Below are positions 3,401 through 54,520 of a DNA stretch of 64,000 bases, in pieces. Position 1 is the stretch's first letter. Each line of letters begins with the position of its first letter. The DNA comes from an uncultured Bacteroidota bacterium (GTDB lineage: Bacteria > Bacteroidota > Bacteroidia > AKYH767-A > JABDAW01): contig CAIMUP010000118.1 in NCBI GenBank assembly GCA_903844645.1, forward strand, positions 1-64,000, written 5' to 3'. The position numbers and the translations under genes are program-made. The notes beneath the pieces are model-generated. The model did not search any database, was not told where the DNA came from, and saw only the letters and a program-made list of their open reading frames with translations.

Positions 3401-5003
3401 ATTGATTGTTCAAAATGGTGCTTCCTTTACTTTTGATGAATCATCAGCTACTTATACTTATTCTACTTCGACTCAAATTCTCTTGAACACGATGGGTGTT
3501 GCAAGTAACACAAAAGCCACCTTTGATGTGGACGCAACCTCTTCAATGGATTTAGAACAAGGAGATATTATTTTTGAAAACACCAACACAGGTTCTGCTG
3601 ATGACTTTAAAATTGGCAATGGCTCTGGTTTCAAGATAATCGGTTCTGCAAACAACCTCCAATTTGGTGATGCATCATCTTCTTCAACCGCTTGCTTTAA
3701 AATTATTGACAGCACTTCCGCCATTAATAATCTTACCATTAACCCAACTGGTGGACACGATTCTGTTCGATTAGATGCTCCGCTAACGATTGGCAGTTCC
3801 GGCATCCTGAATTTACACACAGGTATTCTGCAATTAAATAAAAACCTATTGACCCTTAACAACACTTCTTATAATTCGCTCGGTTCTTTGGTAAATCTTA
3901 ATACAGGTGCTATTCAGCGTTCTACTGGCGGATACATCCTTTCCGAAGATTCCATAAACCGTTCTGCAATAAAATGGGCGATGACGACGGGCAACCTCTT
4001 TTACGTCTTCCCTTTCGGCAATACTTATGGCGGCTATGTTCCATTTTCCTTTAAAAATACATCCACAGGAACTACTTCGCTGAAGGTCGCTACCTACGCT
4101 CCGACGGTTAGCACTTCTCTGCATAAACCTTATCCGTTAACGGTTACGCATCTCCATAGCATCAGCGGTCCTGATAACAGTGCAAATGTCGTTAACAGAT
4201 TCTGGCAAATAGATACATCCGCAGTATCGGGGACGGTTATCGGATCGGTTAAATTTGTATTCTCCAACATTTCAGGGCATGACGAAACACCTGCTAATGC
4301 TTGGGCTACAGGAGGAGTTGCACAACGATGGTCAGCCTCCGGATGGAACACCCCGACGAACAGTGCCCCGACCTCCAACAGCAGCAGTGGCGATACAGTT
4401 TCTGCAAGCGGAATTACCAAATTTTCTCCGTGGACTTTATCCAGAACAGCTTTTGCACTGCCGATAGATTTACTAAATTTTACTGCATCATATAATGGTA
4501 AATCGGTGGATTTGAATTGGACAACGGCTTCTGAAATCAACAATGATTATTTCACCGTTTCAAAGACCGTGAATCAAAGTGAATTCGACTTCGTAGCCAC
4601 CGTGAATGGAGTCGGCAACAGCAATATTATTCAGAATTATTATGCCGAAGACAAGACCCCGTTCATCGGTAATTCTTATTACCAATTAACCCAAACCGAT
4701 TACAATGGCAACGCTACGAAGTACGGGTTGGTACCGATTTTTATTCCAGAAAACGGCTTGGAAATAATCAAGGTTTACGGCGATATAAATGGCGTAATCA
4801 ATCTCACGGTGAACGACAATACCAACGAAATGCTCTCCATCGCCATCCTCGACATTCTCGGAAACAGAATCGGAAGCCAAACCATTAACGCCATCAAAGG
4901 CGGCAATTATATCCAGATAAAACCCGAAAACCTTCCCCAAGGAGTTTACTTTATTTCGGTAAGCAATACCGCCAAACGACTGACCTCGAAATTGGTTTAT
5001 TAA
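474..5003 (+). CDS. Giant secreted T9SS-sorted surface protein
   Basis: 1509-residue exported protein. Residues 1-28 form a signal peptide ending at AFGQ. The next part is rich in aromatic and Asn/Thr residues, followed by Ig/PKD-like stretches (CSGGSVNLSC and a SWSPGATLNDST-type segment). A W-x-G-x-S-T-N-W...NW...P motif follows near residue 740, then a beta-solenoid-like region. The last 80 or so residues have T9SS type A sorting features: a DILGNRIGSQ segment, LPQGVYFISV and a final KRLTSKLVY. The start at 474 was chosen because the promoter lies at 392-422 and the signal peptide begins there. Role unknown: probably an adhesin or structural surface protein. It stands alone between two repeat arrays with its own terminator. 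Confidence 0.85.
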   Translation: MIRKTAHSALFATVLMIATFLANTAFGQLFTPYTITRTTGNTYNSIMGGGGGIYPASTVGWHYSLLGDDMLTYPISLGGWTFNYDNVNMSAFMISTNGFITFDTTTSSIGGYPYGYVNTEFSDQSSPCCIAPMWDDLVTESTNYSQYASWPNVDSCVKYKITGSSGNHVLTVEWANMSHYAASTADINFQLKLYESDYHIEFIYGSMTPGNVTWSFSSGLSSNQTPYTSTAQLLAQQTVNTTSFTYTASDNLSSMPSNNSMIIFNRNTRDLGAISLASPVAGSCTYPTIDTVKVIVHNYGTVTQTFTNLNPVVVYSVVTTPSGTTTCSATVTSGTLAANSDMTVTVGTINMSTGGNYTFLDSTNYATDLNINNNVGVSTTVTVGAVIATATSSTTICSGGSVNLSCSTPGFGHVFSTTYAPISLTSPTTVSLTNDAYTTINIPFTFKYFCNNYSSFILADNGNIQFSSAYSTYLNHVIPGNVLPNNIIAFAFSDLNNPVSGSITYQTMGTIPYRYFVLNFNNVAVFDTTGITTQVILYETTNLIEIHETTVPSHNYTQGIQDNTGAGYTPTGRNDLTWSATNDAYQFTSCPTYSWSPGATLNDSTSATPLASPTVTTTYTVTLNPGSACTKTSSVTVIVTNPLGAIQPIVGDSILCAWTNTSFKIPAITNATSYVWDNSNLSGSTITTGQGTDSITLNVGGSLGGSLRVRGYNSACNAYTAWVSIYILIIPNNNSSANQWVGGVSTNWFNVNNWCGGLPNSTTSADIDGYLGGNYGYFQYFPVINASGAVTLDMILEGDFDTLTISGSNNLDVYGNWIMANSNSISTFIPNTSTVTFKGSTDQSMSNPNFSSLTLPFYNLTINKGSSTATLLEDLYGQQITVSHNLSLVNGLFLISEPTSTVQFSSAPTIPATAGIDLNGGVITPGNYSITNNGVFRINNSSSDITIGATAGNSITTSGSGGSFEMYGGNLTVTGQLIVQNGASFTFDESSATYTYSTSTQILLNTMGVASNTKATFDVDATSSMDLEQGDIIFENTNTGSADDFKIGNGSGFKIIGSANNLQFGDASSSSTACFKIIDSTSAINNLTINPTGGHDSVRLDAPLTIGSSGILNLHTGILQLNKNLLTLNNTSYNSLGSLVNLNTGAIQRSTGGYILSEDSINRSAIKWAMTTGNLFYVFPFGNTYGGYVPFSFKNTSTGTTSLKVATYAPTVSTSLHKPYPLTVTHLHSISGPDNSANVVNRFWQIDTSAVSGTVIGSVKFVFSNISGHDETPANAWATGGVAQRWSASGWNTPTNSAPTSNSSSGDTVSASGITKFSPWTLSRTAFALPIDLLNFTASYNGKSVDLNWTTASEINNDYFTVSKTVNQSEFDFVATVNGVGNSNIIQNYYAEDKTPFIGNSYYQLTQTDYNGNATKYGLVPIFIPENGLEIIKVYGDINGVINLTVNDNTNEMLSIAILDILGNRIGSQTINAIKGGNYIQIKPENLPQGVYFISVSNTAKRLTSKLVY

Positions 5004-5057: not shown

Positions 5058-5113
5058 TTAAATAAACTACGAGGGATTCCCATTCCCTTACGAGGGATTT
5101 TTTAACTGTCCGA

Positions 5114-5281
5114 GATGCCAACTCAACCAGTTAAGATGATAACTTAACCGTCGAAGATGCCAACTTCTACCACAAAGAGCACAACTTCTACTACAATGAT
5201 CACAACTTCTACTACAAAGATGACGACTTCGACTACAAAGATGCCAACTTCTACTACAAAGATGGCGACGCTTAACAGTGA
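5114..5281. repeat. 21-bp tandem array B
   Basis: Eight units of exactly 21 bp, each starting GATG or a variant (GATC, GAGC), with the best-conserved part AACTTCTACTACAAA. The first two units (AACTCAACCAGTTAA and AACTTAACCG) have diverged but keep the phase. No ORF of interest. It fills most of the gap between a terminator and the next promoter. Confidence 0.93.
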
Positions 5282-5640: not shown

Positions 5641-8600
5641 ATGAACGTCAAATTGATTACACAAAACACACAAACAGCAATTTTTAAAAAGAGCGGTATT
5701 TTGGTTTGCATATTAATGGCATTCCTATTCTGCACCAACACTTTCGCGGCTACCATTACCTGGAAAGCTAATTCAAACAGTAATTGGAACAGCCCCTCGA
5801 ACTGGCAAGGAGGACCTGTTCCGACCTTTGGCGACATCGCAGTTTTTGATGCGACCTCGGCATTTAATTGTAACATTGATGCAAATGTAAATGTGGCAGG
5901 AATTCAGATTAATGCAGGTTACACAGGTACCATTACGCAGAATGGTTATACCATTACTTGTGGTGCATCCGGCTTTACGCAATCTACCGGAACATTTACC
6001 GGAGGCACTGCTGCAATTACCGGAAACGGAGCATTTAATTTGAGTGGTGGTATTTTTACCTCTACTTCAGGAGTATTTACACAGACTTCCACTTTCACTA
6101 ATTCTGGTGGAACTTTTAATCACAATAACGGTAGTGTTGTGTTCTCTGGTGGTTTAACAATAACCGGTTCGACTACGTTTTATGATTTATCATTTACAGG
6201 AAGTGGGGTTACCTATACTATCGGAAGTTCAACCACTCTAACTGCGAATAATACCTTTAACACTACAGGTGCGAGCTATGCTACTTTGAGCGGTGGAACA
6301 ATTGATGTAAAAGGAAATATTAACGTGAATAATACTTATGCTGCAAATAATAACCATTCGACTTCAGTAACAATTACTGGGACGGGTTCGCAGACATTTA
6401 CAGGAGCAATTACAGCCTATCAAGGTAGATTCCCATCAGTAACCATTAATAAGGCATCGGGAACTTTGTACCTGAAGAATAATATCACCTTTGAAGGGAA
6501 TTTTACTTACACAACTGGTACTATAGATTATACTACTAACACAAACCGATTGATTTTTATTTCTAATGGAAAGACAATAACGGTTAATGCAGTGCTTACT
6601 GTAGGTGATGTCGAATTTTACGGAACAGGAAGTAATTATACACTTACAACACCTTCAAACTTCAATGTTACAGGGACACTATACATTAGCGGATCAAGTT
6701 ATGGTACGATGCTGTCAGGGACGATTTATGCTCAAGGAAATATTACGGTTACGAATAGTTATACCGCTAATATGGGGCATACTGCAATAATAACTATCAA
6801 TGGAAGTGGAAACCAAAATCTTTCAGGAACTATTACCGCTATGCAAGGAAGACTTCCAAGTCTTGTTATTGCTAAGGGAGGTGGAACGCTTTATTTATTG
6901 AACTACATTACTACTGAAGGGCATTACAGCTATTTTATGGGTACGGTTGATTATACGACAAATGCAAACCGGGTAATCTTTATTTCTAATGGAAAGACTA
7001 TTTTGACAAATACTGCACATACGTTGGGAGATGTTGAATTTGTTGGAACAGGAAGTTCATATACACTAACAACTACCGGAGCATTCAATATTGCGGGAAC
7101 ACTTTATATAAGCGGAACCAGCTACGGCACTATGTACACCGGTACAATTAATGCAAAAGGAAATATTACGGTTACAAATAGCTATACTGCCAATATGGGG
7201 CATACAGCAATAATTAACATCACTGGAACAGCAAATCAGAACTTTACAGGACCGACCACATCTTTACAAGGGAGACTTGCGAGCATAATTATCAATAAGG
7301 CCTCAGGAACTCTTTATTTATTAAACTATATCACAACCGAAGGGAACTGGACTTATACCACAGGAACAATTGATTACACTACAAATGCAAACCGTGTAAT
7401 TTTTATATCGAATGGAAAGACAATTACCACAAATGCTGTTCACACATTAGGCGATGTCGAATTCGTTGGGACAGGGAGTTCATTCACTTTTACTACTCCT
7501 TCTGCTTTCAATATTGCAGGAACCCTTTATTTCAGTGGAACGAGTTATGGAACGATGTTGAGCGGTACAATTAATCCACAAGGGAACATTAATGTTAGCA
7601 ATAGTTATACTGCTAATATGGGTCATACTGCAACATGGAATATTAACGGGACAAGTAATCAGAACTTTACTGGTACAACTACGATTTATCAGGGAAGAGT
7701 TCCAAGTATTATTATTAACAAAGCAAGTGGAACGCTTTACTTAATCAATTATATTACCGATGAAGGAAACTGGACTTACACAACAGGAACTGTTGATTAT
7801 ACAACAAGTGCAAACCGTGTTATCTTCATCTCTAATGGTAAAACAATAACTACAAATGCTGTTCACACATTAGGGGATGTTGAATTCAATGGAACAGGAA
7901 GTAATACTACTTGGACTACTCCATCTGCTTTCAATATAACAGGTACGATGTTTATTACTGGAAATAGTTACGGCACATTCCTCGGAGGAACAGTCAATTC
8001 ACAAGGTAATATTGCAGTTACTAATAGCTATACCGCTAATATGGGTCATACGGCAACGATTAATATTAATGGAACATCTAACCAGAACTTTACCGGAACC
8101 ACTACGATTTATCAAGGCAGAGTTCCAAGTATAGTTATTAATAAAGCAAGTGGAACTCTTTACTTAATCAATTATATCACAGATGAAGGTAACTGGACAT
8201 ACGCTACAGGAACTGTCAACTATACGAATAATGCAAACCGTATAATCTTTATCTCTAATGGCAAAACAATAACCACTAATGCTGTTCACACATTGGGAGA
8301 CGTTGAATTTTATGGAACGGGAAGCAATACTACATGGACTACCAATTCAACCTTTAACATTGCCGGTACTATGTACATTACTGGGAATAGTTACGGAACA
8401 TTTCTTGGAGGATCAGTGAATTCTCAAGGGAATATAACCGTTACGAATAGTTATACAGCTAATATGAATCATACAGCTACTATTAGCATTAATGGAACAG
8501 CGAACCAAAACTTCACCGGAACAACGACGATTTATCAAGGAAGACTCCCAAGTATCATTATTAATAAAGCAAGCGGAACTCTTTACTTAATCAATTATAT

Positions 8601-10776
8601 TACCGATGAATGTAACTGGACTTACACTACAGGAACTGTTGATTATACAACAAATGCCAACCGTGTTATATTCATCGGTAATGGTAAGACTATTACTACT
8701 AACGCAGTGCATACGTTGGGTGATGTTGAATTCTATGGAACGGGAAGCAATACTAAATGGACTACGAGCTTTACCTTTAATATTGCCGGTACTATGTACA
8801 TTACTGGAAATAGCTACGGAACATTCCTTGGAGGTACAGTAAATTCTCAAGGGAACATAACGGTTACTAATAGCTATACATCGAATATGAATCATACCGC
8901 TACCATTAATATCAATGGAACAGCGAACCAGAACTTTACCGGAACAACCACGATATATCAAGGAAGGCTTCCTAATATAATTATCAATAAAGCGAGTGGA
9001 ACACTTTATTTAATCAATTATATCACTGCTGAATGCAACTGGACTTACACTACAGGAACGGTTGATTACACTTCAAGTGCAAACCGTGTGATCTTTATCG
9101 CCAATGGTAAAACCATTACTAAGAATGCCAATCACACAATTGGCGATGCCGAATTCTATGGTACAGGAAGCAATACGACGTTCACGACTCCTTCTGCATT
9201 CAATGTTGCGGGTACGATGTATATCACTGGAAACAGCTACGGAACGATGTTGACCGGAACGGTAAATGCGCAAGGTAATATCACCGTTTCAAATTCTTAT
9301 ACCGCAAATAACAATCACACTGCAACGATTAATATTAATGGTTCAGCGAATCAATTATTCACAGGGCAGGGAACGGCAGGAACAGGAAGATTACCTAATA
9401 TTACCATCAACAAAACAGGCGGAACATTAACATTGGCTGCCCCAATAATTACTGCTGAAGGGAACTGGTCTTATACCGCAGGAACGATGGATGTCGCTAC
9501 CGATACCTCTTCTGTTGCATTCTACAACTCTGGCAAATACATCAGCGGAGCACTTTATACCGCTACCTTGATGGACAATAATCGCAGAACCCTAAACGGC
9601 GCAATGAGCATCAGCAATGTCCTCGCATTAGGAACAGGTAATTTAGACTTAAATCAAAACACGCTTTCCATCTTAAACTCTGCTGCCGGTGCAATCACCT
9701 ATTCAACAGGATATATCAAGAGCGAGCAGACAGATAATTCAAGTAAAATAGCTTGGACAATCGGCTCAAATACCGGAAGCCACGTTTATCCTTTCGGTAC
9801 CAATGGCGGTTCTTTAATTCCATTTACATTCACTGTAACCGCTGGAGATGTCGGCGCGTTTTCGGTCGCAACATACTCTACCAACAGCACTTGCAAGCCC
9901 TATCCCGTTACCCCTGATTCAGTTTTGCATGTCCGCAACGTGGCTGGCTTTGACAATAGCTCAAACACCGTAAAAAGATTCTGGCAATTAACCAAGGGCG
10001 GCGTATCTGGCACTGCCAATATGACCTTCACCGCTGCCGCCGCAGAGGTAGGAACCATTACTTCGCTAAGAGCACAACGATACAATAAAATTAACAACGG
10101 ATGGGATCAACCAATCGGAGGACAAAGCAACCCAACGGCATACAGCGCAACGGTTTCCGGTGTCAGCACCTTCTCTCCTTGGACGATGTCTGGCAATGGC
10201 GTTCCGCTCCCGATACAATTGGTGGACTTCACCGGGAATTATGTAAAAGAAACTAAGTCAGTTCATACCCAATGGACCACCGCGAGTGAGGTAAACAGCA
10301 ATTACTTCACCATCCAAAGATCAGCTAACGGCGTGGATTTCGATTCCATAGGAGCTGTCCAAGGAGCAGGCAACAGTAATGCTTTATTGAACTACAGTTT
10401 CGACGATATGAACCCGTTGCAAGGCATCTCTTATTATCGTTTATCACAGACCGATTTCGATGGCAAGGTAGCTACCTTCAACATGATATTAATTGATGTT
10501 AATACTGATGAAAATACCACAGTGAATATCTTCCCGAACCCAGGTAACGGCACAGAAGTGAATGTGGTCTATACCGATGAAGCAGAGGGCGATAATATCA
10601 CCTTTACCATCGCCGATATTGCTGGCAAAACCATCGCGCAAACAACAATAGTGAATGAAGCAAAAGGCATGAATATTTATAAATTCACGCCTCCTTCGAC
10701 ACTCCCATCCGGCATTTATTTTATGACCGCTGTGATTAATAATAAATCCTTCTCCAAAAAGATAATCGTACAATAA
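5641..10776 (+). CDS. Repetitive T9SS-sorted surface protein, 7 x 141-residue repeats
   Basis: 1711-residue secreted protein. Signal peptide at residues 1-37 (hydrophobic ILVCILMAFLFC, then TFAA). A W-K-x-x-S-N-S-N-W...S-N-W motif is followed by seven repeats of exactly 141 residues (423 bp) and a partial eighth. The anchor T-L-G-D-V-E-F recurs at 6601, 7024, 7447, 7870, 8293, 8716 and 9139. Each repeat carries GNITVTNSYTAN, the NINGTANQNFTG type, GRLPSIIINKASGTLYL and RVIFISNGKTITTNA. Copies differ mainly at silent positions with no indels. The C-terminus is a T9SS sorting domain (IFPNPGNGTEVNV, LPSGIYFMTAV, KKIIVQ). A start at 5599 is also possible; 5641 gives the better signal peptide. Probably a beta-solenoid filament or adhesin. 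Confidence 0.87.
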   Translation: MNVKLITQNTQTAIFKKSGILVCILMAFLFCTNTFAATITWKANSNSNWNSPSNWQGGPVPTFGDIAVFDATSAFNCNIDANVNVAGIQINAGYTGTITQNGYTITCGASGFTQSTGTFTGGTAAITGNGAFNLSGGIFTSTSGVFTQTSTFTNSGGTFNHNNGSVVFSGGLTITGSTTFYDLSFTGSGVTYTIGSSTTLTANNTFNTTGASYATLSGGTIDVKGNINVNNTYAANNNHSTSVTITGTGSQTFTGAITAYQGRFPSVTINKASGTLYLKNNITFEGNFTYTTGTIDYTTNTNRLIFISNGKTITVNAVLTVGDVEFYGTGSNYTLTTPSNFNVTGTLYISGSSYGTMLSGTIYAQGNITVTNSYTANMGHTAIITINGSGNQNLSGTITAMQGRLPSLVIAKGGGTLYLLNYITTEGHYSYFMGTVDYTTNANRVIFISNGKTILTNTAHTLGDVEFVGTGSSYTLTTTGAFNIAGTLYISGTSYGTMYTGTINAKGNITVTNSYTANMGHTAIINITGTANQNFTGPTTSLQGRLASIIINKASGTLYLLNYITTEGNWTYTTGTIDYTTNANRVIFISNGKTITTNAVHTLGDVEFVGTGSSFTFTTPSAFNIAGTLYFSGTSYGTMLSGTINPQGNINVSNSYTANMGHTATWNINGTSNQNFTGTTTIYQGRVPSIIINKASGTLYLINYITDEGNWTYTTGTVDYTTSANRVIFISNGKTITTNAVHTLGDVEFNGTGSNTTWTTPSAFNITGTMFITGNSYGTFLGGTVNSQGNIAVTNSYTANMGHTATININGTSNQNFTGTTTIYQGRVPSIVINKASGTLYLINYITDEGNWTYATGTVNYTNNANRIIFISNGKTITTNAVHTLGDVEFYGTGSNTTWTTNSTFNIAGTMYITGNSYGTFLGGSVNSQGNITVTNSYTANMNHTATISINGTANQNFTGTTTIYQGRLPSIIINKASGTLYLINYITDECNWTYTTGTVDYTTNANRVIFIGNGKTITTNAVHTLGDVEFYGTGSNTKWTTSFTFNIAGTMYITGNSYGTFLGGTVNSQGNITVTNSYTSNMNHTATININGTANQNFTGTTTIYQGRLPNIIINKASGTLYLINYITAECNWTYTTGTVDYTSSANRVIFIANGKTITKNANHTIGDAEFYGTGSNTTFTTPSAFNVAGTMYITGNSYGTMLTGTVNAQGNITVSNSYTANNNHTATININGSANQLFTGQGTAGTGRLPNITINKTGGTLTLAAPIITAEGNWSYTAGTMDVATDTSSVAFYNSGKYISGALYTATLMDNNRRTLNGAMSISNVLALGTGNLDLNQNTLSILNSAAGAITYSTGYIKSEQTDNSSKIAWTIGSNTGSHVYPFGTNGGSLIPFTFTVTAGDVGAFSVATYSTNSTCKPYPVTPDSVLHVRNVAGFDNSSNTVKRFWQLTKGGVSGTANMTFTAAAAEVGTITSLRAQRYNKINNGWDQPIGGQSNPTAYSATVSGVSTFSPWTMSGNGVPLPIQLVDFTGNYVKETKSVHTQWTTASEVNSNYFTIQRSANGVDFDSIGAVQGAGNSNALLNYSFDDMNPLQGISYYRLSQTDFDGKVATFNMILIDVNTDENTTVNIFPNPGNGTEVNVVYTDEAEGDNITFTIADIAGKTIAQTTIVNEAKGMNIYKFTPPSTLPSGIYFMTAVINNKSFSKKIIVQ

Positions 10777-10868: not shown

Positions 10869-10929
10869 AGCCCCTCGGCTTCCTGAATATTGGACCGTGA
10901 TTTTGAAATTATCCCAATAAATTTAAAAA

Positions 10930-11080
10930 AAACCGATACGTTTTTTGGGAAAGGCATTCCGCTTTTCTGAAGAGGCGTTCCGCTTTTTTAATAAAGCATT
11001 CCGCTTTTCCAAAAAGGCATTCCGTTTTTTGAAAAACTCACTACGTTTTTTTAGAAAACTCACTACGTTTTTGGTATAAA
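10930..11080. repeat. 21-bp tandem array C (CG + T-tract)
   Basis: Seven units marked by a C-G step followed by a T tract. The CG falls at 10939, 10960, 10981, 11002, 11023, 11044 and 11066, so spacing is 21 bp five times and 22 once. Units read GCATTCCGCTTTT early and CACTACGTTTTTT late, drifting along the array. The rest of the 510-bp gap holds only a terminator and the secA promoter region. Confidence 0.88.
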
Positions 11081-14751: not shown

Positions 14752-14961
14752 GGGACAGCTATCTTTCACTATGGGAGAGCTATCTATTCATTCGGGATGC
14801 CTATCTATTGCTACGGGATGCCTATCTATTGCTACGGGATGCCTATCTATTCATTCGGGATACCTATCTATTGCTACGGGATACCTATCTATTGCTACGG
14901 GATGCCTATCTATTCATTCGGGATACCTATGTATTCATCCGGGACACATGTCCTGTGCGAA
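14752..14961. repeat. 21-bp tandem array D (GGGATnCCTATCTATT)
   Basis: Ten consecutive units of exactly 21 bp, each starting GGGA and carrying CTATCTATT. Unit ends are of two main kinds, GCTAC and CATTC, in an irregular order. The last unit has diverged (GGGACACATGTCC). Three short open frames across it are products of the 7-codon period. Confidence 0.95.
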
Positions 14962-20829: not shown

Positions 20830-21060
20830 CTCCAGATGCGTCTATGGAAGGCATTCCTTCCTTCCGACAGCTTCCGTACACGTGTATGGGAGCTGTCGGA
20901 TGCTCCCAATGCCTTCCAAACACGTGTATGGAAGGTATTCCTTCCTCCCGATGCCTTCCGGAGGCGTCTATGGAAGCTATCCGATCCTCCAGATGCCTTC
21001 CATAGACGTCTATGGAAGCTATCCGATCCTCCAGATGCCTTCCATAGACGTCTATGGAGC
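20830..21060. repeat. 42-bp (2 x 21) tandem array F (GACGTC palindromes)
   Basis: Six copies with an exact 42-bp period; the marker TATGG starts at 20843, 20885, 20927, 20969, 21011 and 21053. The mature unit centres on the perfect 22-bp palindrome CTTCCATAGAC|GTCTATGGAAG (clearest at 20997-21018), so each 42 bp holds two 21-bp half-units in opposite orientation. Early copies have CACGTGTATGG in place of GACGTCTATGG. Downstream to 21285 there is only the next promoter. Confidence 0.93.
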
Positions 21061-26354: not shown

Positions 26355-26530
26355 CATGTAAAACCTATCAGAAATCCAAATTTCCGATAGGTCTTGGATT
26401 CAAGACCTATGTGAAATCCAAATTTCTGATAGGTTTTCGATCCAAGACCTATGTGAAATCCAAATTTCTGATAGGTTTTGAATCCAAGACCTATCGGAAA
26501 TTTGGATTTCTGATAGGTTTTGGATCCCCA
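26355..26530. repeat. 42-bp (2 x 21) tandem array G
   Basis: Four copies with an exact 42-bp period; the marker ACCTAT starts at 26363, 26405, 26447 and 26489. Each copy is a 21-bp unit (GACCTATGTGAAATCC) followed by its inverted counterpart (AAATTTCTGATAGGT), giving hairpins around CCTATCAGAAAT/AAATTTCTGATAGG. A 113-residue open frame over the array has a 14-residue repeat only because of the period. The rest of 26146-26628 shows nothing else. Confidence 0.92.
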
Positions 26531-33055: not shown

Positions 33056-33290
33056 TCAGGATTCATTCCCATTGCCGGATTGCACCAAAGTATTGCTGGA
33101 TTGCACCAAATTATTGCGAGCAATGGCGGAATTATTGCGAGCAATGGCGGAATTATTGCGGGCAATGGCGGAATTATTGCGGGCAATGACGAAGTTTTTG
33201 CGGGCAATGACGAAGTTATTGCTGGATTGCACCAAATTATTGCCGGCAATAATTTGGTGCAATCCAGCAAAATATTGGTGCAATCCAGCA
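33056..33290. repeat. 21-bp tandem array H with flanking inverted units
   Basis: The middle has direct 21-bp units (CAATGG/CAATGA marker at 33121, 33142, 33163, 33184 and 33205). On both sides lie units GGATTGCACCAAA (33077, 33098, 33224) and their reverse complement TTTGGTGCAATCC (33256 and 33277 marker). The right part forms a perfect 52-bp palindrome at 33219-33270 centred on GCC|GGC. All markers stay in 21-bp phase. Confidence 0.94.
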
Positions 33291-37084: not shown

Positions 37085-37261
37085 GTCAACATTTTCCGAA
37101 ATCCCCGTTATAACCTTACCATTCGACAGATTTTTCTTGGTCATCATTCCGTCATTCGCGACTATTGCGGCGCGATTCGCGGAAAGCATCGCATTAGTCA
37201 TAGAGAATAAAAGAAACATCATGGAGAGTACCACAAGCATCGGGAACATTGGGATAAGAGC

Positions 37262-37520
37262 CACGGGGAATGGGATTTTATCCTTGGCTAATTCCATTTT
37301 ATCCTTGGCTAAAACCCAAATAGCCGTGGCTATTTCCATTTTAGCCGTGACTAATTCCAAAATAGCCGTGGCTAATTCCATTTTAGCCATGACTAATTCC
37401 AAAATAGCTGTGGCTAATTCCATTTTATCCTTGACTAATTCCAAAATAGCCTCCGCTAAAACCAAAATAGCCTCGGCTATTTCCATTTTATCCTCCGCTA
37501 TTTCCATTTTCTTCGGGAAA
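37262..37520. repeat. 21-bp tandem array I (ATTCCATTTTA / ATTCCAAAATA)
   Basis: About twelve units in exact 21-bp phase, from CCTTGG at 37282 to CCTCCG at 37492. Two unit types mix: CCATTTTA and CCAAAATA. They differ by exchanging T4 for A4, i.e. a reverse-complemented core, between constant GCCGTGGCTA arms (TAGCC and GGCTA are complementary). A 320-residue leftward frame and a 164-residue rightward frame across it are period artefacts. Confidence 0.94.
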
Positions 37521-43190: not shown

Positions 43191-43204
43191 AGTGGGGAAA
43201 ACCC

Positions 43205-43418
43205 TCGGGAGTACGCCCAATACTCCCATATATACGCGGCGTACTCCCATATATACACGGCGTACTCCCATATATACACGGCGTACTCCCATATATACAC
43301 GGCGTACTCCCATATATACACGGCGTACTCCCATATATACACGGCGTACTCCCGTATATACGCGGCGTACTCCCGTATATACGCGGCGTATATATGGGAG
43401 TATTGGGCGTACTCCCGA
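43205..43418. repeat. 21-bp tandem array J with 33-bp perfect terminal inverted repeats
   Basis: Eight marker positions of CGGCGTA in exact 21-bp phase, with GG at 43238, 43259, 43280, 43301, 43322, 43343, 43364 and 43385. The internal palindrome is TATATA. Unit types CCCATATATACA and CCCGTATATACG are grouped, the second near the right end. The array is bounded by perfect inverted repeats at 43205-43237 and 43386-43418 (core CCCAATACTCCCATATATAC). It starts 14 bp after the upstream stop codon. Confidence 0.96.
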
Positions 43419-44946: not shown

Positions 44947-46323
44947 ATGGACATCTTTAGAGAAATTTTAGAACTTGAAGGGCGACTTTGTTTTCCAATG
45001 CCTCATTTCAAAATCTTCATAACCGGAGTTTCGATTGACACCAGAACAATCAAAGAAGGCAATCTTTACTTTGCTATCAAAGGAGAGAACTTTGATGGGC
45101 ATGATTTTGTTTGGGAGGCTTATGAAAAGGGAGCTTCTATTTGTTTTGTCAATGAAGATTGGCATGAAAAGAACAATGAGAATCTCAAACATTATTTTTC
45201 AAAATGTGTTAAGGATACGACTGTAGCTTTGGCAAATTTATCTAAGGATTATCGCAAGAAATTCGGCATCCCTTTCATTGCTGTGGGCGGTAGTAATGGC
45301 AAGACGACCACCAAAGAAATGATTGCCGCCGTCCTATCCCCAAAGTATAAAGTCCTAAAGACGGAGGGCAATTTGAACAACCATATCGGAGTTCCCTTAA
45401 CATTATTTCGGCTGGACGATACGTTCCAAATTGCCGTCATAGAAATCGGGACGAATCACTTCCATGAATTGACTTATTTGTGTTCAATTCTGGAGCCGGA
45501 TTATGGCATGCTGACCAATATTGGCAGGGAACATCTGGAGTTCTTTAAGGATATTAACGGCGTGGCTGAAGCGGAGGGAGAACTGATACATTATTTGATA
45601 AAAAACCATAAAAAAGGCATCCTAAATACAGACGATAAACATATTTTCCATAGCGCAAAAGGGCTGCGCCACAGGCTTTCCTACGGTTTCCATGGAAACG
45701 TCGCCGTAAAGGGTGAGTTCCTAGGATTAGACAGGCTCGCGATGCCAACTTTCAGTGTAACTTTTAAAAAAAATACCACAAAAATCAAACTAAAAGTACC
45801 TGGCGAACACTCCATCCATAATGCCCTTGCCGCCGCGGCTATAGGCTTCGAATTTGGGGTATCTGCAAAGCAAATAAAGATAGCCCTGGAGAGCTTTTTG
45901 TCATACAATAAACGAATGGAGGTACTGAAAACAAATGGAATCACCATCATTAACGATTGTTACAATGCCAATCCGGATTCGATGATAGCCGCCATCAAAA
46001 CATTGGAACACATAAAAACAAAAGGCAATAGGATTGCCGTCCTGGGAGATATGGCGGAGCTCGGAAACACCAGTAAAATCGGGCATCAGGAGGTAGGAAA
46101 AATAATTTCAGTATCCAATATCAACTACTTCCTATCTATCGGGAAGGATATGAAACACGCCCACGAAATTGCGGATACCATAATGGAAAATGCCATACAT
46201 TTCGAGAGCAATAAGGTACTGATAGAATTCCTTCGCTTTGCTGCGGAGGCGGGCGACATACTCCTTATCAAAGGATCCCGTTCCATGCGGATGGAAGAGA
46301 TTGTCGCAGCCATGAATTCGTAA
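44947..46323 (+). CDS. murF: UDP-MurNAc-tripeptide--D-Ala-D-Ala ligase MurF
   Basis: Adds D-Ala-D-Ala to UDP-MurNAc-tripeptide, the last cytoplasmic step of peptidoglycan precursor synthesis. 458 residues. The uridine-binding N-terminal domain has GVSIDTRTIKEGNLYFAIKG, followed by the P-loop AVGGSNGKTTTKEM (about residues 112-125), LNNHIGVPLTL, VIEIGTNHFHEL, PGEHSIHNALAAAAIG and CYNANPDSMIAAIKTL. It lies 6 bp after rmuC and is likely cotranscribed. murQ at 22135 is the recycling counterpart. Confidence 0.95.
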   Translation: MDIFREILELEGRLCFPMPHFKIFITGVSIDTRTIKEGNLYFAIKGENFDGHDFVWEAYEKGASICFVNEDWHEKNNENLKHYFSKCVKDTTVALANLSKDYRKKFGIPFIAVGGSNGKTTTKEMIAAVLSPKYKVLKTEGNLNNHIGVPLTLFRLDDTFQIAVIEIGTNHFHELTYLCSILEPDYGMLTNIGREHLEFFKDINGVAEAEGELIHYLIKNHKKGILNTDDKHIFHSAKGLRHRLSYGFHGNVAVKGEFLGLDRLAMPTFSVTFKKNTTKIKLKVPGEHSIHNALAAAAIGFEFGVSAKQIKIALESFLSYNKRMEVLKTNGITIINDCYNANPDSMIAAIKTLEHIKTKGNRIAVLGDMAELGNTSKIGHQEVGKIISVSNINYFLSIGKDMKHAHEIADTIMENAIHFESNKVLIEFLRFAAEAGDILLIKGSRSMRMEEIVAAMNS

Positions 46324-46551
46324 TCCGCCATCGAAATAATCCTCCCAAAAATCGCCTTTCAGGTATCTCCTTTTTTCTATTTGATAGCAAAAAAATCGCG
46401 CTCATGCCCATTCCCATCCGACAGGTTATGATTCAGAAAAGAGCCATACCTTTGCAAGCAAACGGGGTTACCATTTTGGTTAATTCTATACCCTTTTTGA
46501 ACGATTTCCATGTCGCCAAACTTTTTTTGAAAGGGGTAGGATGTAAGTAGA

Positions 46552-46973
46552 TACTGCTCCGCCGAGTTTTCATACTGTTTTAATAAAAATTACTACCTCC
46601 CGTAAGCAAATTCCTACCTAACGCAAGAAAATACTTACCAGCCGAAACGGGATTTTTACCAAAAACGAACAAAAACATATGTTTTTGTTCGTTTTTGGTA
46701 AAAATCCTAAGTTTTTAGATAGGTGTCCCGATTGTTCGCATAGGAAAACCCGAAAATTTGGTAAGCGCAATTCTTTTTTAGATAAGATTATAACGGGGAA
46801 TGGTATCAGGAAATCCGAAAATCCTATCAGAACTTTTCAAAAACATATGTTTTTGAAATTTTTTGGTAAGAATACACTTTTTTTAGGTGCGAATTCCTAC
46901 AGAATCAGTACCAACGAAGTGATGGCGAGTACCTTTTTTCTTAAAAAAGCTATCAAACACTGCCGCATCCATA
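46552..46973. repeat. Degenerate 21-bp phased array K with 58-bp perfect palindrome
   Basis: From 46552 to 46972 a TA step recurs every 21 bp without slip (46552, 46573, 46594 ... 46972; the one at 46888 reads TG), although the sequence between is largely diverged. Left of 46678 the step reads TACC or TACT; right of it GGTA, then TACC/TATC again, i.e. a degenerate GGTACC core. Units meet head to head in a perfect 58-bp palindrome at 46650-46707 centred on CAT|ATG, and in a 24-bp palindrome at 46835-46858. Nothing else is seen in 46324-47104. Confidence 0.9.
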
Positions 46974-46984
46974 CCGATATTTTT

Positions 46985-46994
46985 GGGGGGGGGG
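46985..46994. repeat. Poly-G tract (10 G)
   Basis: Ten consecutive G preceded by T's, at the end of array K and about 110 bp upstream of a promoter. Such tracts change length easily by slippage. Confidence 0.8.
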
Positions 46995-47104
46995 GAATTG
47001 AATTCCCGCGAATCCTTACCAATCGCCCCGAAATAGATACCAGACATCAAAATTCTGATTACTCATCCCCAAATAATAATACTATAAGTTACCGAAATTA
47101 TTAG

Positions 47105-47112
47105 TAACTTTG
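47105..47112 (+). promoter_or_regulatory. -7 box (TAACTTTG)
   Basis: TAnnTTTG 32 bp upstream of the start at 47145. Confidence 0.6.
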
Positions 47113-47144
47113 CGCAGACAATAATAACAATAAATTTTTAGATA

Positions 47145-47624
47145 ATGAAAAGAATAACAATAGTAGCAGTAACGTTTTTTTTGATACTGAATGGCGTCAA
47201 AGCCCAACAAACAGACCAAGGATTGATGACAAACATTGATAAACAGAGACAAGAAATTAAATCGAAGATGAGTACCTATCGCCGCGTGGTACGGTTCCGC
47301 GATAGTTTAAGTACAAAGTATTATTTTTACCAAGGAAAGGAGCTGCAAATGGTAACAATTTGGGTAAAGGCAGGTACGGTAGATAAAAATATAGAATGGT
47401 ATTTCGCGGCAGGCAAGATGATTTATTCCGAAAACAATTGGAAAGACCGCGTAACAGGTAAGGTTACGGAAAATCAGCATTATTATCTTAAAAATGAGGA
47501 AGTATTTGTCTGGATAAAGACAGACGGAAGCCGCGGAGATGCTACCTCCAAAGAATTTTTGGAAGCAAAAGAAGGATTATCCAAGCTTGCCGGCAAAATG
47601 CGGGAAGACGCGACGCATTTTTAG
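47145..47624 (+). CDS. Small secreted hypothetical protein
   Basis: 159 residues with a signal peptide (ITIVAVTFFLILNGVKAQ). The mature part is basic with segments IDKQRQEIKSKMSTYRRVV, DKNIEWYFAAGKMIYSENNW and NEEVFVWIKTDGS; it could be a small periplasmic sensor or lipid/peptide-binding protein. No family recognised. It has its own promoter and a convergent terminator shared with tRNA-Ala. Confidence 0.68.
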   Translation: MKRITIVAVTFFLILNGVKAQQTDQGLMTNIDKQRQEIKSKMSTYRRVVRFRDSLSTKYYFYQGKELQMVTIWVKAGTVDKNIEWYFAAGKMIYSENNWKDRVTGKVTENQHYYLKNEEVFVWIKTDGSRGDATSKEFLEAKEGLSKLAGKMREDATHF

Positions 47625-49102: not shown

Positions 49103-49150
49103 GAAATATTGCGGTATGTCGCGCTATCATTTCTAATCGGAATTCGGTTT

Positions 49151-49270
49151 CCCCTCATCCAAAACACGGATGACCTCAACCCAATCACGGATGACCTCAT
49201 CCAAAACATGGATGACCTCAAACCAATCACGGATGACCTCAAACTTGTCGCGGATGACCTCATCCGTGAT
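49151..49270. repeat. 21-bp tandem array L (GGATGACCTC)
   Basis: Five units in exact 21-bp phase (GGATGACCTC at 49168, 49189, 49210, 49231 and 49252). The last runs into an inverted half unit, giving the near-palindrome CGGATGACCTCATCCG. It sits between the divergent promoters of glyA and rocD. Confidence 0.94.
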
Positions 49271-54289: not shown

Positions 54290-54294
54290 GCCCA

Positions 54295-54520
54295 TAACAA
54301 TATTCTTCGACCCCGTTGATATATTCTTCGACCCCGTTAAGATGTTGTTCGACCCCGTTGATATGTTGTTTGACCCCGTTAAGATGTTGTCCGACCCCGT
54401 TGATATGTTGTTTGACCCCGTTAAGATGTTGTCCGACCCCGTTGATATGTTGTTTGACCCCGTTGATATGTTGTCCGACAACACAGATATGTTGAGGGGG
54501 AACATATCTCTGTTGTCTCT
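54295..54520. repeat. 21-bp tandem array M (ACCCCGTTGATATG)
   Basis: Eight units in exact 21-bp phase (CCCCGTT at 54311, 54332, 54353, 54374, 54395, 54416, 54437 and 54458). Types TTGATATG and TTAAGATG alternate almost strictly. The right edge is a hairpin at about 54476-54516 (GACAACACAGATATGTT against AACATATCTCTGTTGTC, one mismatch). The left edge adjoins the terminator. Confidence 0.95.

Follow-up and report, generated by a model that had tools for sequence, protein, structure and literature searches.

The nearest described case to the arrays analyzed here is BrickBuilt of Porphyromonas gingivalis, a 23-nt intergenic minisatellite that lies within a MITE, whose 19 copies share sequence and are bounded by a defined leader and a defined tail that carry terminal inverted repeats (PMC4596501). 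BrickBuilt and the 21-bp arrays of this genome are alike in occurring in Bacteroidota, in having fixed, spacer-free tandem units of nearly two helical turns with a conserved and a variable half, and in being intergenic and dispersed. They differ in unit length (21 bp here instead of 23), in density (about one array per 4.6 kb here), and in sequence, since the units here are mostly unrelated and the shared unit sequence that defines BrickBuilt is lacking. Intergenic direct repeats of the heptamer TAACTGA form patchy, short tandem arrays in Bacteroidetes (PMC4679880); that system consists of one 7-bp word, whereas we deal with 21-bp units of differing sequence. REP and BIME elements are likewise intergenic, palindromic, and dispersed, and a REP-like palindrome of about 44 bp lies near several of our arrays, but the 21-bp arrays have no common sequence and keep a strict tandem register. 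Iterons of plasmid origins are direct repeats at whole-turn spacing that place a protein on one face of the helix, with variable bases between the contacts and inverted dyads nearby. The array at positions 46552 to 46973 resembles them in its exact 21-bp (whole-turn) spacing and differs in that a binding core of several bases is absent, only TA being kept across units, and in its setting on a chromosomal contig, between a Mur ligase gene and a gene without a Pfam match, with no rep gene seen beside it. Tandem repeats normally have a common sequence or mixed unit lengths. A literature search returned no system in which arrays of differing units keep a fixed 21-bp length, which is weak evidence because most subscription papers lay outside the search.

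We analyzed a window of 64,000 nucleotides, the whole stretch of DNA presented here, from an uncultured Bacteroidota bacterium. The original prediction was that a row of TA steps, with one TG, recurs at exact 21-bp spacing among units that no longer look alike. Indeed, TA occupies 20 of the 21 positions 46552+21k (k = 0 to 20), the exception being the TG at 46888. Among 2000 dinucleotide-preserving shuffles of positions 46300 to 47144, the best row had 9/21 TA at 21-bp steps and none came near 20/21; with the whole window shuffled 200 times, the maximum was 10/21. When the window was scanned with any dinucleotide at the other periods from 15 to 30, no row exceeded 12/21. The dissimilarity of neighboring units was essentially confirmed as well, with a lag-21 identity outside the TA columns of 0.329 versus 0.265 expected. 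Pairwise column identity was 1.0 for the T, 0.9 for the A, and 0.22 to 0.49, near saturation, for the remaining 19 columns. TA alone is near invariant, and the units of this array showed no common multibase core, no 7-bp subunit, and no lag-3 correlation. Two bases beyond the TA, G or C stands on the two sides in 17/21 and 18/21 units, GG precedes or CC follows the TA in 11 of 20 units, and the columns further out are A/T rich.

The array lies downstream of a plus-strand gene of the Mur ligase family, probably murF (44947 to 46323; Pfam Mur_ligase_M, Mur_ligase_C, and catalytic domains), and upstream of a gene for a 159-amino-acid protein, also on the plus strand (47145 to 47624). Synteny around murF is broken, its neighbors being rearranged in a congener. 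Two outlying TA sites, at 46447 and 46489 (46447 to 46490), are still in phase, the sites between these two having been lost or shifted. A perfect palindrome of 58 bp (46650 to 46707) is centered on a first dyad and holds AAAACATATGTTTT at 46672 to 46685. The second dyad is again AAAACATATGTTTT, at 46840 to 46853 (center at 46846/47), 168 bp or eight units from the first and inside an imperfect 50-bp palindrome (46822 to 46871). The in-phase run ends at a tract of 11 G on the plus strand (46985 to 46995), across which the register shifts by +3; two more TACC sites follow in the shifted phase, with TA at 47017 and 47038 (47017 to 47039), 21 bp apart. The single register slip near the array thus falls at a homopolymer.

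The TA row is not a one-off, because two paralogous arrays of the same genome, L043 (C39, 56.1 to 57.3 kb) and L224 (C88, 10.8 to 11.9 kb), each 1.1 to 1.2 kb long, show the same pattern. Their TA chains comprise 55 units in L043, with one TA skipped, and 48 units in L224, and each departs from 21-bp spacing only once, where a 20-bp step coincides with an A8 tract. The 14-mer AAAACATATGTTTT occurs twice in each of the three arrays, separated by 168, 167, and 167 bp, and a pattern search of the 3.8-Mb assembly found it at these six sites only; the congener G002 has one copy, with GGTA 21 bp from its dyad. In all three arrays, dyad 1 is directly preceded on its left by TACC-type units and dyad 2 is directly followed on its right by GGTA-type units. 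The three lie on separate chromosomal contigs, and two adjoin Mur-ligase-type or other household genes. Between the dyads, L043 and L224 align in opposite orientation with 178 matches, 8 mismatches, and 2 one-base gaps, and their overall identity is 91.6% over 368 bp, which marks them as recent relatives. The copy at 46552 to 46973 aligns poorly with both, and equally poorly in both orientations. The GC fraction at 5 to 6 bp on either side of the TA is 0.00 to 0.04 in L043 and L224 and 0.10 and 0.25 in the 46552-46973 array. That this poorly alignable copy retains the register, the TA, the dyads, and the A/T at 5 to 6 bp speaks more strongly than any other finding for constraint on the register and the TA step.

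The 46552-46973 array is an old, eroded member of a genome-wide set of 21-bp intergenic arrays. Our census of the genome covered the window plus 400 kb of the same assembly (464 kb); other genome-wide figures come from samples of 1.16 Mb of this genome and of 0.88 Mb and 0.07 Mb of two congeners, except for pattern searches. In the 464 kb, Tandem Repeats Finder assigned period 21 to 121 rows, period 42 to 43, and period 63 to 23, versus 1 row for period 20 and 3 for period 22. These correspond to ∼101 arrays of period 21, 42, or 63, with a median length of 190 bp, of which about 80 lie in gaps and 10 overlap called genes. An array was present in 72 of the 86 gaps of at least 300 bp versus 6 of the 240 shorter ones, and tandem, convergent, and divergent gaps held arrays equally. 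Within the window, other period-21 arrays lie at 14752 to 14951 (unit GGGATACCTATCTATTCCTAC), 1 to 231, 5113 to 5269, 10900 to 11057, 33071 to 33290, 37198 to 37514, 43198 to 43411, 49133 to 49268, and 54291 to 54515, and period-42 arrays lie at 20839 to 21058 and 26363 to 26527. Array lengths and numbers are probably underestimated, because many contigs begin inside a 21-bp array (for example, L031, L035, L041, L046, L207, and L214).

Consensus units are mostly unrelated between arrays, with a homologous minority. Dyad symmetry is enriched, as 30 of 84 units have at least 7 of 10 pairs, versus 8.6 expected. We rejected several candidates for a feature common to all arrays: an EM search found no shared motif, TA is unenriched in array units (odds 0.89), the enriched 5- and 6-mers (ATACC, CCAAA) are not universal, and poly-G tracts number 7 in 464 kb, one alone within 10 bp of an array. 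A CRISPR array was rejected too, given that the units lie head to tail and that the 46552-46973 array keeps nothing beyond TA as a repeat.

Of the 1782 core-to-core spacings measured in 210 arrays, 1692 (94.9%) are multiples of 21; among those off register, about 30 deviate by 1 to 4 bp and 52 are 14. Units carry 4.7 substitutions versus their consensus and roughly 0.004 indels per substitution, a ratio that is biased low by the lag-21 detection and in which substitutions are counted against the consensus and not as events. A ratio of 0.118 from gapped alignment was discarded because the gap cost was too permissive, and core spacing was used instead. Scarcity of indels is therefore general across the 21-bp arrays. 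In about 24 arrays, a conserved dinucleotide recurs at period 21 in otherwise unlike units; many of these arrays are of period 42, the 46552-46973 array and the C39 array being among the few exceptions. At periods 19, 20, 22, 23, and 24 there were no such arrays, at period 18 there was one long locus (L197), and 1.95 Mb of other Bacteroidota contained none at period 21. The claim that indels were avoided while substitutions accumulated, in a way hard to explain by neutral decay, fits the shuffles, the two paralogous arrays, and the core spacings. Support for it is partial: purifying selection is what we infer from this pattern, lag-21 detection undercounts indels, and tandem duplication with homogenization also keeps register. 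Moreover, what needs explaining is the 21-bp system, with about a hundred arrays per 0.46 Mb, and not a single gap.

We favor, with a probability of about one half, the explanation that the arrays are helically phased sites for a putative DNA-binding protein of two-fold symmetry and that selection keeps the register and the contacted step while the arrays expand, homogenize, and spread. Each 21-bp unit, equal to two helical turns, would hold one two-fold-symmetric site with its axis running through the TA step, G/C 2 to 3 bp away, and A/T further out, so that all sites would face one side of the helix. The candidate protein may occupy successive sites in a filament-like manner, and the two CATATG dyads eight units apart could be special or nucleating sites. 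Tandem duplication and unequal exchange, acting on whole units, would let arrays grow and homogenize, with occasional spread to other gaps; selection for a phased nucleoprotein array would purge register shifts and retain the contacted step, leaving the remainder of the unit to drift. We favor protein sites because the period equals two turns, the retained step lies on the dyad, array units are more often dyad-symmetric than expected, and readings as coding sequence, as RNA alone, or as curved DNA fit poorly. As to curvature, the A-tract signals of gap DNA do not rise above background at lags 10 and 11, and there is no 10.5-bp subperiod. A single protein of fixed specificity cannot read all arrays, since TA is unenriched in general and there is no common motif; other arrays have other cores, so the protein would read phase and symmetry, or several proteins would share one spacing. 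The most likely role would be to shape the DNA locally or to insulate transcription units from one another, because arrays show no preference for gene orientation. Speaking against protein sites are this limit on a single protein, the absent 10.5-bp subperiod, the turnover of arrays between congeners, the undercounting of indels, and the greater homogeneity of array centers than of edges (0.82 versus 0.71), which is what plain minisatellites show.

The main rival, serious although less probable, is a second explanation, in which the arrays are selfish or neutral miniature elements bearing minisatellites, as in BrickBuilt, their 21 bp being set by formation or copying and the host tolerating them in gaps. 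The greater divergence at the edges fits this explanation, as do comparisons of orthologous gene pairs between congeners, where the gap is 208 bp with an array versus 51 bp without; subtracting the array (208-151 bp) leaves a remainder close to the array-free gap. Two further comparisons gave 480 versus 141 bp and 1297 bp (array plus gene) versus 184 bp. By the length of the rest of the gap, arrays are present in 2% of cases below 60 bp and reach a peak of 55 to 63% at 200 to 500 bp. Flanks match elsewhere for 98 of 341 array flanks, mostly beside other arrays, and related arrays occur at several loci, some mutually inverted, as are L043 and L224. One inverted flank pair was found, at L231 (67 nt, 84% complementary). 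Against this explanation, most arrays have unrelated units, unlike one element family, repeat flanks are a minority, and no long terminal repeats (at least 20 nt) bracket the 46552-46973 array, where neutral decay would not keep TA at 20/21 with 19 other columns saturated.

Such comparisons show that arrays expand, spread, and vanish on species timescales. Homologous period-42 arrays in one gap of two species (L038 and L191) keep their dyad in different letters, and in an orthologous gap of two congeners (L049, 2178 to 2482; L254, 6194 to 7139) the arrays have unrelated units. In G002, the latter gap has an additional gene, which may encode a Uma2-type (DUF820) nuclease. This turnover of arrays between congeners favors a mobile or minisatellite component and is the chief argument for the second explanation; it also makes no single array look indispensable. 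The two explanations may both hold, in the form of an element whose spread is tolerated owing to the bound protein.

We consider it improbable that register and TA are imposed by a mechanism without selection, for example, a nuclease, recombinase, or polymerase activity that builds and repairs arrays in 21-bp steps with a preference for TA. The sharpness of period 21 in mostly unrelated sequences, with hardly any rows at 20 or 22, would be expected of such a mechanism. Long perfect palindromes are typical of template-switch correction, and the one at 46650 to 46707 is consistent with it. The patchy distribution among relatives also looks as though one determinant had been gained or lost. Both sampled congeners carry 21-bp arrays, while 67 kb of a genome of the same family and 40 kb from each of ten genomes of other families of the order had none. 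A whole-genome pattern search found them in a second family of the order (G027), and across the class they are patchy even within genus g41, being present in G269, G100, and G161 and absent from G186, G209, and G229; many of the smaller counts in this class-wide search reflect 7-bp repeats and not the 21-bp class. On the other hand, TA is not general in array units, and we found no candidate enzyme: the REP-type Y1 transposase, which has one match in this genome, does not correlate with arrays. Tandem repeats of 7 bp (for example, TACCTAA) occur in other Bacteroidia (G011, G019, G271, G089, and G262), 21 being 3 × 7.

A series of hairpins in RNA or single-stranded DNA, acting as terminators, attenuators, or processing sites, is very unlikely. 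The gap of the 46552-46973 array does fold better as RNA than its shuffles (z of −5.8), and arrays compared with column-permuted controls have a mean z of −1.7, with 28% below −2.5. However, the median z is only −0.95, so most arrays are not strong hairpins, divergent gaps hold arrays as often as others, and an Rfam search of the window at the gathering threshold matched RNase P and two tRNAs only, with nothing at the array; an RNA stem, moreover, needs neither an exact 21-bp register nor TA. That the arrays encode a heptad-repeat protein (21 bp being seven codons and divisible by 3) has a negligible probability, for although 1.8 of 6 frames are open versus 1.3 in controls, both strands are closed in every frame in 51 of 223 arrays, the mod-3 contrast in conservation is below that of permuted controls, and lag-3 correlation is lacking.

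The favored protein-site explanation can be extended, tentatively and with less confidence than we attach to the sites themselves, to a chromatin code fixed in length and free of sequence. In some Bacteroidota, the arrays of most long gaps would share only a 21-bp register, for a putative protein that would rely less on sequence than on helical phase and dyad symmetry, and the eroded array at 46552 to 46973 would expose the contact step. One unit length, that of two helical turns, is common to hundreds of sequences that are for the most part unrelated, and the small TA family reveals which base step survives the erosion of the remainder. If a protein lies behind the arrays, they would mark a bacterial system, nucleoid or insulator, that has a clear binding register and has not been described before; if a mutational process does, that process would be one that makes repeats in a fixed step. 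Because close relatives differ in whether they carry arrays, comparative genomics can be used to search for the determinant.

We made several further observations in these genomes. The three genomes of the genus encode 11, 8, and 6 members of a protein family of ∼255 amino acids without a Pfam match, and 38 other relatives encode none; the loci of this family include L209 (10200 to 10967), L036 (10633 to 11400), L043 (17305 to 18060), and L045 (about 5856), on C13, C39, and C44 of the genome studied here (G000). All five inspected copies lie just downstream of a 21-bp array, which in one case touches the start codon. A REP-like dispersed palindrome of about 44 to 50 bp (CCTGACAGGCAATCGCCCCTTCGCGATTTCCTGTAAGG) adjoins several arrays, and in some cases two inverted copies enclose the array, with sites at 3686 to 3733, 3783 to 3834, 7052 to 7105, and 7475 to 7516 of L225, among others. 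GATC depletion, considered as an array-specific feature, proved to be genome-wide, together with that of GGCC and CTAG: all three are strongly avoided in samples of this genome and of G002 (GGCC, 254 occurrences versus 7768 expected in coding sequence), as in restriction-site avoidance. Finally, positions 6946 to 9350 of the window hold a 423-bp tandem repeat of 5.7 copies within a long open reading frame, which probably encodes a repeat-domain surface protein.
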